DNA of 64,000 bases from Desulfuromonas sp. (GTDB lineage: Bacteria > Desulfobacterota > Desulfuromonadia > Desulfuromonadales > BM501), in the NCBI RefSeq assembly GCF_002868845.1, contig NZ_PKUB01000006.1:1-64000 (forward strand), in the 5' to 3' direction. The translations under genes were made by a program, and so were the position numbers. Shown piece after piece: positions 3,901 through 57,838 of this stretch; the first letter of the stretch is position 1, and each line of letters begins with the position of its first letter. The notes beneath the pieces were generated by a model that did no database searches, had not been told where the DNA came from, and saw only the letters and a program-made list of their open reading frames with translations.

Positions 3901-4874
3901 GCCCCGTCCTCCAGGTTCGACCGGACCAGATCGGCCATGGCGCTGATGAAAAGAGGATGGTCGTTCAGGGAGGGGCTGCGCCCGAATGAGCGGATGCCCC
4001 TGCCATGGGCGTGATCGCGGTACTCCACATCGATTTCCTGAAGGGTTTCGATATGGTCCGAGACGAAGGAGATGGGCACCATCAACACCGCCTCGTGGCC
4101 GTCCGAAGCCAGCTGATCGAGCACCTCCTCGGTCCCCGGCTCCATCCATTTGACCGGACCGCTGCGACTCTGGAAGCCGATGTGCCAGGGGCGCTCTCCG
4201 ACCCGCTCCATCACGCCCCGAACAGTCTCCATCACGTGCTCCAGATAGGGATCGCCGCGATCGATGAACTTCTGGGGCAGGGCGTGGGCGGAAAAGAAGA
4301 TCTGCACCCCGTCGCGCATCAATTCGTGGAACTGGTTCAGCCCCTCGTTGACCTGGTGCGCCAGAGCATCGAGATAGGCGGGCCAGTCGTACCACTGCTC
4401 GACGACGGAAAACGTCAACTCCGGATAAACACGGGAGGCGGTTCTGCGAAAATCCTTGACGCTGCTGCCGGTGGTGGCGCCGGTGTAGTGGGGATACATG
4501 GAGACCACAACGGCGCGCTCGATGCCGTCGGCCGCCATCCGGCGAAGGGTCTCCTCGGCGGTAGGGTGCCAGTAGCGCATCGCCACGTAGGGGCGGAACG
4601 CCTCGCCCAGTTCCCGGGCGATCCCCTCGGCCTGGCGACCCGTCCAGTGCAGCAGCGGGGAGGCCCCGCCGATGTTGCGGTAGTTCTCCGCCACGTGCTT
4701 GGCCCGGAAGTGGGAGATCATCCGGGCGAAAGGCTTCTGCAACAGGGCGCCGAGGGGCAGCTGGATCAGGTCGCGGTCGGAAAAGAGATTATAGAGGAAA
4801 GGCTCGACCGCCTCGAGGGAGTCGGGGCCGCCCATGTTGAGCAGGACGAGGCCGATCGGTTTTTCAGAATCCAT
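3897..4874 (-). CDS. hemH: Ferrochelatase
   Basis: 325-residue enzyme that inserts Fe2+ into protoporphyrin IX or coproporphyrin III. Family signatures seen: GLVLLNMGGP at residues 8-17, SMYPHYTGAT with His129, the catalytic FFSAHALP with His197, and SDHIETLQEIDVEY with Glu276. Length matches the minimal bacterial enzyme without a C-terminal [2Fe-2S] extension. The gene lies 75 bases after hemE in the same direction and overlaps the next small gene. Whether it prefers copro- or protoporphyrin cannot be read by eye, but the nearby AhbD-like gene makes the coproporphyrin form worth testing. Confidence 0.96.
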   Translation of the reverse strand: MDSEKPIGLVLLNMGGPDSLEAVEPFLYNLFSDRDLIQLPLGALLQKPFARMISHFRAKHVAENYRNIGGASPLLHWTGRQAEGIARELGEAFRPYVAMRYWHPTAEETLRRMAADGIERAVVVSMYPHYTGATTGSSVKDFRRTASRVYPELTFSVVEQWYDWPAYLDALAHQVNEGLNQFHELMRDGVQIFFSAHALPQKFIDRGDPYLEHVMETVRGVMERVGERPWHIGFQSRSGPVKWMEPGTEEVLDQLASDGHEAVLMVPISFVSDHIETLQEIDVEYRDHAHGRGIRSFGRSPSLNDHPLFISAMADLVRSNLEDGA

Positions 4875-4906
4875 GATCAGAACGATGCTCCTGCGGCGGA
4901 AATGAA

Positions 4907-45183: not shown

Positions 45184-47019
45184 ATGAATGAAACCCTTCC
45201 AAAGATGGTCAGCCGCCAAGCCCGCCGCCTATCCAGCCAAACCGCCCTGCGCTACAAAGAGAAGGGAGCGTACCGGGACATTTCATGGAAGGCCATGGAG
45301 CAGGCCTGGCGCGGCTACGCCCTGGGGCTTTTGAGCCTCGGCCTGCGCCCCGGAGAACGGGTGGCAATCATGGGGCCCAACGGGCCGGCATGGGTCTTCG
45401 CAGACCTGGCCGCAATGCACTGCGGGGCCGTATCCGTCCCCATATATCACACCGAGGGGCTGGAGGCCATCCTCCATGTGGTCAACGACTCCCAAAGCCG
45501 CTTCCTTTTTCTCTTTTCGCCCCTGCTTGCCGAGGAGTTGCTTTCGCACCTGGCGGAGGTCCCGCAACTGGAGAGGGTTATCCTCCTGGAGGGTTCCCTT
45601 GAGCACCCCTCCTTCGTTTCCCTGCAGGAGTTCCTGGCCGGGGGCGACCAGCAGCAGCAGGCCAGCCTGGACACCCTGACGGAGAAGGGCTCCGCCGAGG
45701 ACCCGGCCACCATTATCTACACCTCCGGCACGACGGGCCCGCCCAAGGGGGTGACCCTGAGCCATCGAAACATCCTGGCCAATATCGAAGCGGCGGTGAA
45801 GTCATTTGAAATCTCCGAAAAAGACACCTGCCTCTCCTTCCTGCCGCTTTCCCACGTCTTCGAGCGGGTCGACGGCTACTACCTGATGCTCCACCAGGGC
45901 GCGGTAATCGCCTACGCCGAAAATATCGACACGGTCCCCCTGAACCTTCAGGAGATCGCTCCGACGATCGTCATCAGCGTTCCCCGGCTCTTCGAGAAGA
46001 TGTTCGCCCGGATCATGGAGAGGGTCCTGGCCGGTCCATGGCATAAAAAGCAGATATTCTTCACGGCGCTGAAGGCCGGGAGGGCCGCAGTCGCGAGGCG
46101 TCAGGGCGGCCGCAACCCCGGGGTTTTGCTGGAGATGGCCGTCGCCGCGGCAAATGCTCTTGTCTTTACCAAACTCAAGGGGCACCTTGGGGGCCAGGTG
46201 CGCTTTTTCATATCGGGCGGCGCTCCCCTGCCCCGCAATGTGGCCGAATTCTTCCTCGCCGCGAACCTGCCGATCTATGAGGGGTACGGGCTGACCGAAA
46301 CCGCGGCCGGAATCACCGTCAACAGCCCCCAAGCCCACCGCATCGGAACCGTGGGGCGCCCCTTCGAGGGCACTGATGTCCGCATCGCCGATGACGGGGA
46401 AATCGTCGTCCGGGGACCGGGCATCTTCCAGGGCTACTGGAACGCACCGGAGCGGACCGCGGAGACCTTCGCCGACGGCTGGTTTAAAACCGGCGACATC
46501 GGCGAATTCGACCCGGAAGGTTTCCTGCTCATCACCGACCGCAAGAAGGACATCATCGTAACCGCCGGCGGCAAAAACATAGCCCCCCAGGTGATCGAGA
46601 GCCTCTTCAAGCACGACAAGTTCCTGTCCAACGCCATGGTCTACGGAGACCGAAAGCCCTACCTCACCGCTCTTCTCGTCCCCAACTTCGACAACCTGTA
46701 GAAATACGCCCGCTTCAAGAAACTCGATTTCCTCAATCATTGCGACCTGGTCAACCACCCCCGGGTCCTCGACCTGATCCGCCGCCGCATCGACCGCCTG
46801 CAGGAAGGACTGCCCTCCTTCAAGAGGATCAAGCGCTTCACCCTGCTCTCCCGGGACTTTTCCATGAAGGAGGTCACACCCACCCTCAAGGTCAAGCGCA
46901 AGCTGGTCACCGAGAACTTTCGCCAAGTCCTGGATGGGATGTACCTGGCCAAGGATCACGGCATCCACGACAACGGATTCTGCATGGTCGAAGAAGAGGC
47001 CTCCGAAGAGCAAGACTGA
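45184..47019 (+). pseudogene. Long-chain acyl-CoA synthetase (AMP-forming), in-frame TAG
   Basis: Adenylating enzyme that activates long-chain fatty acids to acyl-CoA. Seen: TIIYTSGTTGPPKGVTLSH (P-loop, about residues 178-196), PLSHVFERV, YEGYGLTETA and WFKTGDIGEFDPEGF. A TAG at 46699-46701 (codon 506, after VPNFDNL) ends the frame. The same frame continues for 105 codons: KYARFKKLDFLNHCDLVNHP, then FSMKEVTPTLKVKRKLVTEN with the conserved A10 lysine, to a TGA at 47017. The intact protein would have 611 residues, normal for the family. GAG to TAG would explain it. The truncated form would lack the A10 lysine and should not make acyl-adenylate. Confidence 0.87.
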
Positions 47020-47126: not shown

Positions 47127-48707
47127 TTGGGGGGACAGGTCTTTCTGAACAACCTTGAACAGGCCCTGACAGGCCTGGTCAAACTCATCAAGGCTGTCCA
47201 GTACTACCCTCCCCGCCACCCTTCCCTGACCGCGGCCGTCGAAGAGGCTAGAAACCGCTTCGCTCCGCTTCTGGAGGGGGACACCCCCCTCAACTGCACG
47301 GTCCACCGGGACGGCTTCACCGTAGCGGAGCGAAAAATCGCTCCGAACAGCCCGATCCTGAAGAGCCTTGCCCCTTTTCTCTTCGCCCGCCGCATTCATC
47401 AACTCATGGTGATGCCCGATCTCTGCGCGAGCGACCTCGAGGCCCTGGCCCGTTGCCTCACCCTGGAGCCAGGAGAACTGCAGAAGGAGGGAGGCGTTCC
47501 CGAAGCGCTGCGCCGGGCGCGGGTCACCACGGTCTGGATCAACGAAGTCGACCTCGCCCGGGTCCTGGCCATGCGGGAAGAAATCGAGGAATTGGGCTCC
47601 GACGGACACGAAGCTGAGGCCCAGGCACTTCACACGCCAGAAGACGTCCTGGAGGTCACCCGGGAGAACCGGGATCTGGAGCGGGTCATCCAGGAGTTGG
47701 CACGGGAAACCGACCCGGCCCGCTACCAGGACCTCCTCCGGGAACTGGCCCCCCTGATGCACCAGAACCTGACCGAAACCGGCCGCCCCCTGGTGCTCCA
47801 GGCCCTGACACTCGTCGGCCGCCACGCGATTGACAGCAAGGACTCCGGGGAGCGAAAAACCAGCGCACGGCAGGCCCTGACCGAACTGACCGGTGAGGAC
47901 ATCCTCGATTTCCTCATCGAATCGGCGGGCACCGTGCGACTGGCCGAGGACATACGCCAGCGGGTCATCCGGACCCTGGCCTTCCTGGGAAAGCGCGCCG
48001 GGCAGAGGGTCATGACAAGGCTGGCCGGGGAAGAAAACCCGGAGACGCGCCGCCGCCTCGCCCAGATACTGATCCGCCAGGGCCCGGCGGCAATCCCGGT
48101 CCTCGCCACCCACCTCGGTGATAACCGGACGCGGGGGGTGGGCGACGCCGTAGCGATGCTCGGAGACATTCGCGACCCCCAGGCAACGCCCTACCTTCAC
48201 CCCATGCTGTTTCACCCGGAGGGGCGGATCCGGCGGGAGGCGCTGCGGGCCCTGACCAAGATCGGAGGCCTGGCCGCCGTGGGGGTCCTGATCCAGGCCA
48301 TGCGGGGAAAGGACCAGGATCTTCGCACCCGGGCCATCCGCGCCCTGGGCGCGTTGCGGAACACGGCCGCCGTCGCTCCTCTCAGGAAGCTGGTCGGCAA
48401 ACCGGACCCCCTGTCCCGCCACGTCGAGGCGAAAAAGGCGGCCGTCCTGGCTCTCGGAGAAATCGGCTCCGAGGATGCCGTCCCGACCCTCCTGGGGACC
48501 CTTCGACGTCGCAAATTCTGGGGCCGGGCCCGCAACGACGAACTGCGTGCGGCGGCCGCCTTCGCCCTCGGAAAACTGGCTGCGCCCCGCGCTGCGAAAG
48601 GGCTGAAACGCGCCTCCCGGGACCGCGCCGCGACGGTGGCCGACGCCGCGAAACAATCCCTCAAACTGATCGAAGATACCCAGGACCATGAACCCGGAAG
48701 AGATTAA
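47127..48707 (+). CDS. HEAT-repeat protein with N-terminal YPxxHP module
   Basis: 526-residue protein. A TTG at 47127 follows GGAGGGGAGGAG and is the likely start, although other starts are possible. Residues about 1-140 form a helical module with YYPPRHPSL and a DGFTVAERK stretch. From about residue 170 on, and mainly after 310, HEAT/PBS-lyase-like repeats occur (DILDFLIESAGTVRLAED, GRIRREALRALTKIGGLAAV, DLRTRAIRALGALRNTAAVA). A protein-protein scaffold is likely. The C-terminal end overlaps the next gene by 20 bases. The N-terminal module is similar to that of the following HD-GYP protein. Confidence 0.82.
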   Translation: MGGQVFLNNLEQALTGLVKLIKAVQYYPPRHPSLTAAVEEARNRFAPLLEGDTPLNCTVHRDGFTVAERKIAPNSPILKSLAPFLFARRIHQLMVMPDLCASDLEALARCLTLEPGELQKEGGVPEALRRARVTTVWINEVDLARVLAMREEIEELGSDGHEAEAQALHTPEDVLEVTRENRDLERVIQELARETDPARYQDLLRELAPLMHQNLTETGRPLVLQALTLVGRHAIDSKDSGERKTSARQALTELTGEDILDFLIESAGTVRLAEDIRQRVIRTLAFLGKRAGQRVMTRLAGEENPETRRRLAQILIRQGPAAIPVLATHLGDNRTRGVGDAVAMLGDIRDPQATPYLHPMLFHPEGRIRREALRALTKIGGLAAVGVLIQAMRGKDQDLRTRAIRALGALRNTAAVAPLRKLVGKPDPLSRHVEAKKAAVLALGEIGSEDAVPTLLGTLRRRKFWGRARNDELRAAAAFALGKLAAPRAAKGLKRASRDRAATVADAAKQSLKLIEDTQDHEPGRD

Positions 48708-50022
48708 ACAGGTCGTACAGGGCCTTGCCGGAGCATTCAAGATGCTCCGCCTCTACCCCCTTGGCCACCCCGCCATCGAGCGCCAGATTCAGGGCCTTCT
48801 GGTCGCGTTGCGCTCCCTGTTCCGATCTCAGAAAGTCCTCCACATGGGACTTCTGGAGGGAGCCCTCTTTTTCGAGGAGCATCTCTTCGCCCAGAGCCAG
48901 CCTGCAGCCGAGGAACTCGCCCGTACGCTCAAGTCCCTCGCCCTGAAGGGACTGGAATTCCACCCAGGCCTGACCGCAAAGGAACTCCAGATCCTTCTTG
49001 ACCTGCTCGACCGCAAAGAGGCCAGGGGCGAAGCCCTAGAGGATGCCCTGGCCGAACGGGGAGTGCACAACATCCGCCCCCTCGCCGACGAGGACGAGGA
49101 CGAGACGGCCGACGATCCGCCACGCAAGGTCTACGGACGGGCACTGCAGGTTATGGAGAAAATTTTCCACGACGTGCGCCTCGGCAAAAACCCCACCTCG
49201 GACGACGCGGTGAAGGTGGTCAAGAGCATGGTGCAGCTCACCCTCTCCGAGCCCCATGCCCTCTTTGCCCTCTCCATGCTCAAGGATTACGACAACTACA
49301 CCTTCACCCATTCAGTCAACGTAGCGGTCATCGCCCTGACCCTTGGCCGCGCCTGCGACCTCACCCCGGAGCGGCTCAGAACCCTCGGACTCGGCTCGCT
49401 GCTGCACGACCTGGGCAAACTCCATATCGATCGGGACATCATTACAAAGCCGGGCAAGCTCACCGAAGAGGAGTTCGCCCTCATCCGCCAGCACCCCCGC
49501 CTCGGCGCCGACATCGTCGGCGAGATGGAAGGTGTCCCCCCCGAAGCCATGGACATCGTGCTCGGCCACCACCTGCGCTTCGACGGGCAGGGATACCCGG
49601 TAGAGGCCCGCGGCCGGACGGTCTCGCCCCTGGTCGAATTGGCGGCGATCGCCGACACCTACGACGCGATCACCACCTTCCGCTCCTACCAGCGTCCCAT
49701 GACCCCCCGACAGGCGATCCAGAGGTTGCGGGAGGTGTCGGGAACGGTGCTCAACCCCGGCTACGTGAAGCGCTTCATCGCCTCCCTCGGCAGCTACCCG
49801 GTCGGGAGCCTGGTCCGGCTCGACAGCAACGAGATCGGAGTCGTCGTTCGGGTCGGGGAGAAAGACCCGGATGCGGTGACCCTCACCGTCCTTTTTGACC
49901 CTGGCGGCAAGCAGATCGCCTCCCCTCGACGGATGGACCTGAACGGCACCGACGCGGTGCGCATCGTCGCCGAAGTCGACCCCTTTGTCAGGGGCATCGA
50001 GGTGACCGACTACTTCGACTGA
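48688..50022 (+). CDS. HD-GYP phosphohydrolase (c-di-GMP family)
   Basis: 444-residue protein. N-terminal module of about 130 residues with LYPLGHPAI, an acidic linker DEDEDETADD, then an HD-GYP domain from about residue 190. The HD pair is in LGSLLHDLGKLHID (His240, Asp241). The GYP motif is HHLRFDGQGYP, where the usual Glu of HHExxDGxGYP is Leu. This may affect a second metal or the activity. HD-GYP enzymes degrade c-di-GMP to GMP or pGpG. A C-terminal extension of about 80 residues is present (GSLVRLDSNEIGVVVRV). Coupled to the HEAT gene by a 20-base overlap. Confidence 0.9.
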   Translation: MNPEEIKQVVQGLAGAFKMLRLYPLGHPAIERQIQGLLVALRSLFRSQKVLHMGLLEGALFFEEHLFAQSQPAAEELARTLKSLALKGLEFHPGLTAKELQILLDLLDRKEARGEALEDALAERGVHNIRPLADEDEDETADDPPRKVYGRALQVMEKIFHDVRLGKNPTSDDAVKVVKSMVQLTLSEPHALFALSMLKDYDNYTFTHSVNVAVIALTLGRACDLTPERLRTLGLGSLLHDLGKLHIDRDIITKPGKLTEEEFALIRQHPRLGADIVGEMEGVPPEAMDIVLGHHLRFDGQGYPVEARGRTVSPLVELAAIADTYDAITTFRSYQRPMTPRQAIQRLREVSGTVLNPGYVKRFIASLGSYPVGSLVRLDSNEIGVVVRVGEKDPDAVTLTVLFDPGGKQIASPRRMDLNGTDAVRIVAEVDPFVRGIEVTDYFD

Positions 50023-50246: not shown

Positions 50247-50813
50247 TCAGGCGTCCAGCCGTCCGAGGGCCTGCGCCGTTTCACGGCGCACTGCGGAGCG
50301 ACGGTCCTGAAGCAGGGGCAGGAGATCCGCTTCCGCTTCGGAGAGTCCCATCTTCCCCAGGGAACGAACTGCGCTCACCACCAGTTCCTCGTTTCCTTCC
50401 CGAAACAGTGCACTGAGATAAGGGATCAGGCGCCCATCACGAAAATTCCCCAAAGCCTCTACGGCATGAACCTGCACGGCGGGATGGGGATCCTTGAGGC
50501 GCTGGACCAGTCCCCCGAGGGACTTGGGGTGGCCCTTCTTGCCCAGCACCTGCACGGCCGCCGCCCGCACATCGGCATCAGGATCCTTGAGGGCGGAAAG
50601 AAGGAGAGGGAAAGCCTTGGGAGAGGTCAGGCGCTCCAAGGCAAAGACCGCACGCACCCGCGGGCCTCGGTTCTCCGATTTCAGAGCCTCGGCGACCTGC
50701 TCCAGTCCGAGAACGGACTCCAGCTGCTCCAGAGCCTCCGCAGCGGCGCTGCACACCCCCTCGTCCGGATCCTGCAGGGCCAACCTCAGCAAGCGTTTCC
50801 GCTCATCCAGCAT
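50247..50813 (-). CDS. HEAT-repeat protein
   Basis: 188-residue protein made of about five HEAT/PBS-lyase-like repeats (DPDADVRAAAVQVLGKKGHP, DPHPAVQVHAVEALGNFRDG and EELVVSAVRSLGKMG). No other domain or signal peptide. Proteins of this type usually bind another protein. The ATG at 50813 has GGGGAG upstream; an ATG ten codons earlier has none. It lies beside the HEAT/HD-GYP pair in the opposite direction, which may or may not be meaningful. Confidence 0.82.
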   Translation of the reverse strand: MLDERKRLLRLALQDPDEGVCSAAAEALEQLESVLGLEQVAEALKSENRGPRVRAVFALERLTSPKAFPLLLSALKDPDADVRAAAVQVLGKKGHPKSLGGLVQRLKDPHPAVQVHAVEALGNFRDGRLIPYLSALFREGNEELVVSAVRSLGKMGLSEAEADLLPLLQDRRSAVRRETAQALGRLDA

Positions 50814-50931
50814 GACCGCCGTCTCCCCCCTACTCCATGTCAAACGCAGATCGCCCGGGGAACCACTGCCGTTCCCGGCGAATCAAAATTAGCAGAAACA
50901 GATCATCGGCGCAACCGGTTTCCAGCCCGGA

Positions 50932-55537: not shown

Positions 55538-57838
55538 ATGAGCGAACAAACCAAACCCTTCTTCCAGGAACATCTCAAAAAGGAAATTGCCGGATTCTTC
55601 CTCCTGGCGGTCGGTGCCTTCCTTCTGCTCTGCCTGGTCTCCTTCGACAACGGCGACCCCTCATTCAACAACAACCTTCACCCTGAGGTGGTGCGCAACT
55701 ACGGCGGCACCGTGGGGGCTCACCTGGCCGACCTGCTCTACCAGATCTTCGGCTTTCCGGCCCTTCTGCTCCCCCTGACCTGCCTGTTGTCATCCTGGCG
55801 CCTGTTCAAGTTCCGGGACATTCGCCTGCCCCTCTACAAGGCCGGGGCCTTCTCCGTGCTGCTCCTCTCCCTGGACGGTCTCATCGCCCTGCGCTTCCGG
55901 GAGGCCACATTATCCGGCCAGACCATCAGCGAGGCGGGCGGCGCGGCGGGACGCCTTCTGGTCGACGCCCTGGCCGACTACATCAACCTCACCGGGGCGG
56001 CAATTTTCCTGACCGTCTTCTTCCTCGTCTCCCTGATGTTGGTCGCGCGCTTCTCCATGGTGCTCTTTCTCGAGGGGCTGCTCGGGCGCTTCGCCGCCCT
56101 GCTCGGGCGCGCCCGCGAGCGGCGCGCCGCCAGGAAGTCCCGGAGAGCCGAGAAAAGGGGCAGAGAGAAGAAGGAGGCCGGCCCGATCATCGTCCAGGCC
56201 GAGACCTTGACCCTGCCCGCCCCTCCCAAGGTCGAGAAAAAGAAGAAGAAAAAAGCGACCGAAGCCGAAATCCAGGAGGCCTTCGACTTCCTGGAACCGG
56301 AGGGGACATACCATCCCCCGTCCCTCTCCCTGCTCGACCACGATGGGGAACCGCCCGTGCCGGTGGACCGGGACGCCCTGACCATGAATGCCCGCATCCT
56401 CAGCAAGAAACTGGAGGACTTCGGGGTGCGGGGCGAGGTGGTGGAGGTCAAGCCGGGGCCGGTGGTCACCATGTACGAGTTCTCCCCGGCCCCCGGGGTC
56501 AAGGTGAACAAGATCGCCGGCCTCTCCGACGACTTGTCCATGGCGCTGAAGGCCCTCTCCATCCGCATCGTCGCCCCCATCCCCGGGCGCGGGGGGGTCG
56601 GCATCGAGATCCCCAACCGCGACCGGCAGACCGTCTACCTCAAGGAGATCTTCGAAACCGGCGAATTCCAGAAGTCGGGTGGCCGGCTGCCCATGGCCCT
56701 GGGCAAGGACATCTTCGGCCACACCGTCGTCTCCGACCTGGCGAAGATGCCGCACCTTCTGGTGGCCGGGTCGACCGGCAGCGGCAAGTCGGTCTCCATC
56801 AACACCATGGTCCTCTCCCTCCTCTACCGCGCCACCCCCCGGGACGTGCGCGTCATCATGGTCGATCCCAAGATGCTCGAACTCTCCATCTACGAGGGCA
56901 TCCCCCACCTCCTGCTGCCGGTTGTCACCAACCCCAAGAAGGCGGCCCTGGCCATGGCCTGGGCGGTCCGCGAGATGGAGCGGCGCTACAAGCTGATGGC
57001 CGACAAGGGGGTGCGCAACATCGACGGCTACAACAAGAAGGTCGCCAAGGAGGAAAAGGAGAAGGAAAAACTCCGGGCCAAGGGGAAGATGGTGGTCGAA
57101 GCGGTTCCGGAACCGATGGAGGACGCGGAGGAACTGCCGCCGGTCCAGATCGAAGAGGGCGAGGAACTCGAGCACGGCCACCTGCCCTACATCGTGGTCA
57201 TCGTCGACGAACTGGCCGACCTGATGATGGTCGCCGGCCGCGAAATCGAGGAGTCGATCGCCCGCCTCGCGCAGATGGCCCGGGCCGCCGGCATCCATCT
57301 CATCCTCGCCACTCAGCGCCCCAGCGTCGACGTCATCACCGGCCTGATCAAGGCCAACTTCCCGACCCGCATCTCCTTCAAGGTCTTCTCGCGCACCGAC
57401 TCGCGCACCATCCTCGACCAGATGGGTGCCGAAGCCCTGCTCGGCATGGGGGACATGCTCTTTCTGCCGCCGGGCACCGGCGCCCTGACGCGGGTCCACG
57501 GCGCCTTCGTCTCCGCGCTCGAGGTGCAGAGGGTCGTCGAGTTCCTCAAAAAGCAGGGCGATCCCGAGTACGACAAGTCGATCCTCGATGCGCCTCCCTC
57601 CGGCGAGGGCGTCCCCGGCGACGACGAGGACGGCTACGACGAGAAGTGGGACGAAGCCGTGGCCCTGGTCGCCGACAGGCGCCAGGCCTCCATCTCCATG
57701 CTGCAGCGCCACCTGCGCCTCGGCTACAACCGCGCCGCGCGAATGATCGAGAAAATGGAACAGGAGGGCATCGTCGGCCCCTCCGACGGAACCAGCCGGC
57801 CCCGCGAGGTGTTCGTCAACCCCGCCCCCCCGCCGTAA
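55538..57838 (+). CDS. ftsK: DNA translocase FtsK/SpoIIIE
   Basis: 766-residue septal DNA pump. The N-terminal membrane region of four hydrophobic segments ends near residue 180. A Lys/Glu-rich linker follows, shorter than in E. coli. The motor domain then has Walker A VAGSTGSGKSVSINT, VMVDPKMLELSIYEGIPHLL and LATQRPSVDVITGLIKANFP. The C-terminal gamma winged helix (SMLQRHLRLGYNRAARMIE) recognises KOPS-type sites. A long charged insert (EKEKEKLRAKGKM) sits between the motor segments. The ATG at 55538 follows AAGGT; the frame is open 13 codons earlier. Confidence 0.96.
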   Translation: MSEQTKPFFQEHLKKEIAGFFLLAVGAFLLLCLVSFDNGDPSFNNNLHPEVVRNYGGTVGAHLADLLYQIFGFPALLLPLTCLLSSWRLFKFRDIRLPLYKAGAFSVLLLSLDGLIALRFREATLSGQTISEAGGAAGRLLVDALADYINLTGAAIFLTVFFLVSLMLVARFSMVLFLEGLLGRFAALLGRARERRAARKSRRAEKRGREKKEAGPIIVQAETLTLPAPPKVEKKKKKKATEAEIQEAFDFLEPEGTYHPPSLSLLDHDGEPPVPVDRDALTMNARILSKKLEDFGVRGEVVEVKPGPVVTMYEFSPAPGVKVNKIAGLSDDLSMALKALSIRIVAPIPGRGGVGIEIPNRDRQTVYLKEIFETGEFQKSGGRLPMALGKDIFGHTVVSDLAKMPHLLVAGSTGSGKSVSINTMVLSLLYRATPRDVRVIMVDPKMLELSIYEGIPHLLLPVVTNPKKAALAMAWAVREMERRYKLMADKGVRNIDGYNKKVAKEEKEKEKLRAKGKMVVEAVPEPMEDAEELPPVQIEEGEELEHGHLPYIVVIVDELADLMMVAGREIEESIARLAQMARAAGIHLILATQRPSVDVITGLIKANFPTRISFKVFSRTDSRTILDQMGAEALLGMGDMLFLPPGTGALTRVHGAFVSALEVQRVVEFLKKQGDPEYDKSILDAPPSGEGVPGDDEDGYDEKWDEAVALVADRRQASISMLQRHLRLGYNRAARMIEKMEQEGIVGPSDGTSRPREVFVNPAPPP

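Follow-up and report, generated by a model that had tools for sequence, protein, structure and literature searches.

Why should a HEAT-repeat protein and an HD-GYP-type enzyme, encoded side by side, begin with the same domain? The question is raised by two overlapping genes in a 64,000-nucleotide stretch of Desulfuromonas sp. DNA (assembly GCF_002868845.1, contig NZ_PKUB01000006.1, positions 1 to 64,000; hereafter the window). Both kinds of protein, the HEAT array and the HD-GYP-type enzyme, are well known, and HD-GYP proteins often have a sensor domain at the N terminus. To our knowledge, little is established about what positions HD-GYP enzymes and what activates them. The novelty lies in the unnamed domain common to the two proteins, in the constant pairing of their genes, which exists in two paralogous forms, and in a third gene that accompanies them. 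We propose, with a probability of about 0.55, that the locus encodes a two-protein signalling unit, in which the paired N-terminal modules bind each other as a paralogous heteromer and so couple a HEAT scaffold to a phosphodiesterase. Both the contact between the two proteins and the activity of the enzyme are predicted.

Gene 1 (47127..48707, + strand) is an open reading frame of 526 amino acids (aa) that encodes an N-terminal module followed by HEAT repeats. Gene 2 (48688..50022, +; 444 aa) encodes a module, an HD-GYP-type domain and a C-terminal beta-strand domain. Each product was modelled with AlphaFold from relatives of its own protein only (predicted local distance difference test scores, pLDDT, 89.9 and 87.9). 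In the gene 1 model, a module of about 140 residues and a low-confidence linker (159-180) precede the HEAT array (residues ~180-520; 47664..48686, +), which is built of helix pairs and matches alphaRep and HEAT structures. The Pfam family HEAT_2 (PF13646) scores 98 bits against a cut-off of 27.7 and the model has a helical repeat fold, so that score and fold agree on HEAT repeats. The TTG start of gene 1 is that assigned by an earlier note on this DNA, made from the sequence; the purine-rich AGGAGGGGAGGAG lies 3 bases upstream of it.

The earlier note had described a collinear region of about 130 residues at the two N termini, and this is borne out: YYPPRHPSL/LYPLGHPAI, DGFTVAER/EGALFFEE and MPDLCASDLEALARCL/HPGLTAKELQILLDLL occur in the same order in both proteins. 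Its mention of ARxL-rich helices is correct as to the helices, which are there in both models, and loose as a description. Aligned alone by BLASTP, the two proteins match without gaps over residues 10-111 and 6-107 with 23% identity (E 9e-4 for this single comparison). Profiles of 30 relatives each give a far stronger result (E 4.1e-11, 123 columns, 21% identity; on repetition E 2.7e-11, 122 columns). A lack of profile-profile similarity had been set beforehand as a possible refutation; the similarity is significant, at E 2.7e-11 against controls of 0.0078 or more. Twelve reversed-profile controls gave E 0.0078 to 0.52, the best of 100 column-shuffled controls gave E 0.021, and together these rule out chance similarity. 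Off-target profiles were equally unremarkable (HEAT module against HD domain, E 0.41; HD module against HEAT array, E 0.36). The module profile places the domain at 47148..47555 (+) in the HEAT protein (E 1.2e-43) and at 48697..49089 (+) in its neighbour (E 6.6e-42), the window's copy being itself a profile row in each case.

The order of helices and strands, helix-helix-strands-helix-strand-helices-strand with a beta hairpin after the second helix, is the same in the two models. The elements are H2-26, H32-49, E55-60, E63-66, E69-71, H76-86, E92-95, H101-111, H115-120, H124-130 and E136-138 in gene 1, and H3-19, H28-45, E51-56, E59-62, H72-83, E86-91, H97-109, H115-123 and E129-133 in gene 2 (H, helix; E, strand). 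The module alignment has just two fully conserved columns, a Tyr and, four residues on, a His, found in 53 of 53 copies from both partners and both of the paralogous pairs described below. They sit in the turn joining the first two helices, as Y27-P-P-R-H31-P in the HEAT protein (47205..47222, +) and Y23-P-L-G-H27-P in the HD-GYP-type protein (48754..48771, +).

This domain is new and unnamed. A scan of the 53 rows yielded no convincing Pfam family: none occurred in more than two rows, the best E was 0.0033 and the families were mixed. The module profile had a single structure match under E 0.001, the designed protein Octarellin V.1, which we took as chance (total E 0.00022, best piece i-E 1.5). 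Among the structure matches listed, which are dominated by the HEAT array and the HD domain, none aligned with the module of the HEAT protein, which does not in itself speak for a new fold.

The two genes overlap by 20 bases (48688..48707, +), as had been observed before, and in 28 of 30 pairs measured the overlap is 4, 11 or 20 bases, an arrangement consistent with translational coupling. The N-terminal stretch of each protein was searched against 136 genomes of the order. The HEAT gene occurs in 104 of them, and in at least 90 of these 104 the HEAT match is followed by an HD-GYP match that begins 1286 to 1655 bases further on. The tally was made without weaker rows, which are mostly paralogues of 720-810 aa; one such row (genome G039) proved to be a true pair. 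Reading of seven loci (L084 to L090) from the other fourteen genomes added G039 (L089) and G076 (L086, a fragment at a contig end), giving 92 of 96 decidable genomes with the HD-GYP gene next to the HEAT gene. The 96 leave out eight genomes in which the HEAT gene reaches or lies near a contig end (G004, G014, G017, G063, G072, G114, G119 and G134). Failure of the pair to be conserved was the other outcome named in advance as a possible refutation, and the pair is conserved.

Two further findings go beyond the earlier note: a second pair, and a small HEAT gene. Pair 2 consists of a protein of 720-760 aa followed by one of about 390-470 aa, as stop-to-stop frames. In Pfam scans the first carries the module and a HEAT_2 match (3/3 scanned) and the second the module and HD_5 (3/3, one of them interrupted by a stop). 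Pair 2 is present in the window's own genome, on contig C15 (L072), where its HD-GYP-type gene has an in-frame TGA inside the module (~56808-57128). In some genomes (L073, L075 and L076) pair 2 is doubled in tandem, with four module genes in a row. The neighbours of pair 2 were listed only, not annotated, and no clear pathway emerged from them.

Compared pairwise, the four module families (HEAT and HD-GYP modules of pairs 1 and 2) match significantly in all six cases, with E from 4.8e-8 to 3e-21. A tree of 74 modules, which has few columns and some long rows from the wider phylum, places 39 HEAT and 35 HD modules on opposite sides of one branch (support 88/62; 88% of bootstrap trees). The HEAT/HD label changes once on this tree, against a mean of 24.9 for shuffled labels, and pairs 1 and 2 separate within the HEAT side and again within the HD side. 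On the simplest reading the module was duplicated once and the whole pair was then duplicated as a unit, an order of events that would follow from the shape of the tree.

The module reaches beyond the order. In a sample of 146 genomes from the class the 53-row profile finds it in 133, and in a sample of 296 from the phylum in 118, 12 of the 118 being order or class genomes already searched. Outside the order, at least 92 of the 126 module matches listed stand in tandem pairs, in at least 43 of 72 genomes; the count leaves out rows of order genomes and is a lower bound. In 12 of 14 loci read there, a module-HEAT gene is followed by a module-HD gene. A further locus (L135) has module-HEAT with no HD gene within the stretch fetched, and another (L133, 1186-3405) holds a 740 aa frame that has the module and neither a HEAT nor an HD match, possibly a third architecture. 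The search in other phyla covered two sets: in the phylum to which a Bdellovibrionales genome belongs, 3 of 144 genomes have weak module matches, and in two genomes reached by way of loci from other groups no module was found at E 0.1.

What would the second protein do? Its product matches HD_5 (PF13487) with 84 bits against a cut-off of 27.2; the HDIG domain (NCBIfam TIGR00277) scores 27.4 bits, under its cut-off of 27.6. In the catalytic domain (49276..49743, +), D202, H208, H240, D241, K244, H269, H294, H295, D323, D326 and R332 are invariant in 30 of 30 relatives, as is the GYP motif (G302, Y303, P304). The segment HHLRFDGQGYP (49567..49599, +) has, as the earlier note saw, Leu where Glu is usual, with HHL for HHE at residues 294-296. 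The hint that this is special proved weak, as the Glu is missing from all 30 relatives (which have Leu, Thr, Ser or Val) and from 11 of 11 pair 2 paralogues. The full HHExxDGxGYP motif is absent, and we therefore call the protein HD-GYP-type, not a canonical HD-GYP. Absence of the Glu is a family trait, and we dropped it as the sign of a dead enzyme; in the available part of PMC4159591, the metal and catalytic residues tested in PmGH of Persephonella marina do not include this Glu.

With residue roles taken from the same available text, seven of the eight metal ligands of PmGH are kept in 30/30 relatives (H189, H221, D222, H250, H276, H277 and D305 in PmGH numbering), as are the equivalents of D183, K225, D308, Y285 and R314. 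The eighth ligand, E185, is replaced by Tyr in 30/30 relatives, and K317 by Gln in 29/30. In section 11 of PMC4159591, a two-metal centre is predicted for a large subfamily whose E185 position is occupied by Tyr or Phe. The ligands common to both HD-GYP groups of that paper, as far as its available part goes, are present in the gene 2 product, whose Tyr at E185 is as in the Y/F group. An active two-metal phosphodiesterase is likely, because seven of the eight ligands are kept throughout the relatives.

The closest known HD-GYP phosphodiesterases are PmGH (PDB 4mcw_B; Z 19.3, root-mean-square deviation (rmsd) 3.2, 183 residues, aligned from residue 146), PA4781 (4r8z) and DvhD (9rbz), which have the catalytic domain in common with gene 2. 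Unlike them, the gene 2 product has Tyr for the bridging ligand E185, no HHE Glu, the module in place of a GAF, REC or PAS domain, and a fixed HEAT partner gene. The top structural match of the gene 2 model is Bd1817 of Bdellovibrio bacteriovorus (PDB 3tm8, 3tmb; for 3tmb_B, Z 23.6, rmsd 3.1, 226 residues, model residues 85-368). Chain 3tmc_A (Z 21.0, rmsd 4.0, 249 residues) aligns from model residue 50, that is, into the module. The start of the alignment to the whole-protein model thus varies by chain, between residues 50 and 85; as a lead, the modelling suggests that the module may be related to the N-terminal domain of Bd1817. The module profile did not find Bd1817 at sequence level at E up to 10. 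According to the available parts of PMC4159591 and PMC3774798, Bd1817 is inactive and lacks several active-site residues and the GYP tyrosine; GYP is kept in all 30 relatives of the gene 2 product. Beyond its N-terminal third, gene 1 resembles YibA (PDB 1oyz), alphaRep proteins and Pfam HEAT_2/HEAT_PBS, as does the small convergent protein described next; what sets gene 1 apart from HEAT-repeat proteins is its N-terminal module, which is not a HEAT repeat and is common to the HD-GYP-type partner. No account of the HEAT/HD-GYP pair was found in the largely open-access library searched, and the available part of PMC8835794, on cGAMP in Geobacter, names no such pair.

Convergent on gene 2 lies a conserved third gene (50247..50843, - strand) that encodes a small HEAT-repeat protein (Pfam HEAT_2, 134 bits). 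All 16 loci read that have both pair 1 genes show it beside the HD-GYP gene (L009, L089, L091-L098, L128-L131, L137 and L139; weakest match E 4e-12, in L131). Of the 136 genomes of the order, 95 carry it, and all but one of these, 94, have the pair 1 HEAT gene too (Fisher p 8e-21, uncorrected for kinship), and it is convergent with and adjoins the HD-GYP gene in 79 of the 83 genomes with both on one contig. At E 1e-12 it was not found in G062, G079 and G081, three of the four genomes that keep the HEAT gene and have lost the HD-GYP gene. Its probable role is that of an additional binding partner or of a competitor.

These observations can be drawn together in a mechanism. An old duplication would have given one copy of the module to a HEAT scaffold and the other to an HD-GYP-type phosphodiesterase, and the pair would later have been copied as a pair. 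Mutual binding of the modules is the simplest explanation of their presence, because two copies are fixed in coupled genes, in two paralogous pairs. Held by such a paralogous heteromer, the HEAT arm might restrain the phosphodiesterase, or place or gate it near a client; the enzyme would cut a cyclic dinucleotide locally, with cyclic di-GMP (c-di-GMP) or 3',3'-cyclic GMP-AMP (3',3'-cGAMP) as candidate substrates, and the small convergent protein could bind as a further partner or compete. The earlier note had offered a heteromer or a common ligand for the module, and either would fit the evidence; the link it drew from scaffold to c-di-GMP turnover is one that we also infer.

Tyr and His, the sole invariant residues and identical in both partners and both pairs, are what a common ligand site needs. 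The module might accordingly be a ligand-binding sensor that each protein uses separately, the two responding to the same small molecule without contact, and its N-terminal location is the usual sensor position in HD-GYP proteins. Yet strict adjacency, with overlap in 28/30, suggests a fixed ratio and assembly at synthesis, and the module has few other partners, with HEAT plus HD in 12/14 loci read; we regard separate sensors as an unlikely, if serious, alternative. Somewhat less probable again is that the modules only homodimerise, the two proteins sharing a pathway and an operon in separate complexes. PmGH, an HD-GYP enzyme, is a homodimer according to the available text of PMC4159591, and the genomes that keep a HEAT gene by itself point the same way. 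Homodimers would, however, leave unexplained the retention of a common domain by the two genes and in each of the paralogous pairs.

A different doubt concerns catalysis. Were the HD-GYP-type protein a dead regulator like Bd1817, binding a nucleotide or a protein, its top structural match, an inactive relative in the available part of PMC4159591, would be readily understood, as would HHE without its Glu and Gln for K317 in 29/30. The invariance of GYP, HD, both His of HHx, D323, D326, R332, D202 and K244 in 30/30 argues the other way, Bd1817 being without the GYP Tyr in that text, and Tyr at E185 marks the large subfamily that section 11 predicts to be binuclear, not dead. We consider a dead regulator improbable, the least credible of the three.

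Several points weigh against a heteromeric signalling unit itself. Four genomes keep the HEAT gene and have lost the HD-GYP gene (L084, with a remnant; L085, L087 and L088, where none was found), and because they keep it alone the HEAT protein can act without the HD-GYP protein. In L084 the HEAT gene is intact, and what follows it (4517-4876) is no more than the C-terminal part of the HD-GYP gene. The invariant Tyr and His, being present in both partners, may serve the structure or the binding of a ligand and not an interface. Support for the branch that splits HEAT from HD modules is moderate. Tyr at E185 and Gln at K317 may alter activity or substrate. The window's own HEAT protein is without the D-RW-VVRNA-ILG (DRWYVVRNA) segment kept by nearly all relatives (window 48120-48175), and may have lost one conserved surface.

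A broader version of the heteromeric signalling unit is more doubtful, and we hold it tentatively. It would be a new cyclic-dinucleotide signalling unit across the phylum, in which a once-duplicated new domain joins a HEAT scaffold to a two-metal HD-GYP-type phosphodiesterase in an obligate heteromer, with the pair duplicated as a unit and the opposite-strand small HEAT protein as regulator; the module would have a distant relative in the N-terminal domain of Bd1817.

The remaining features of the locus are quickly told. The C-terminal beta-strand domain of gene 2 spans residues ~371-444 (49798..50019, +) and appears as strands in the model. CoaE lies upstream of pair 1 in 16 of 16 order loci read, and IclR, acyl-CoA synthetase, SSB, PlsC and RNase J recur in some of them. 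The acyl-CoA synthetase gene upstream of gene 1 has an in-frame TAG (window 46700-46702), after which the frame is open to ~47017; this is either a true nonsense mutation or an assembly error. No known RNA, riboswitches included, was found in the window at Rfam gathering scores.

The module can be defined as a new domain and entered as such in a protein family database. The two paralogous pairs provide a short list of genes in which to study the choice of partner, pair 1 against pair 2 in one cell. For the HD-GYP-type enzymes, the prediction of a dedicated scaffold partner comes from genomes alone; the two proteins have a common domain, in each of the two paralogous pairs and over much of the phylum.

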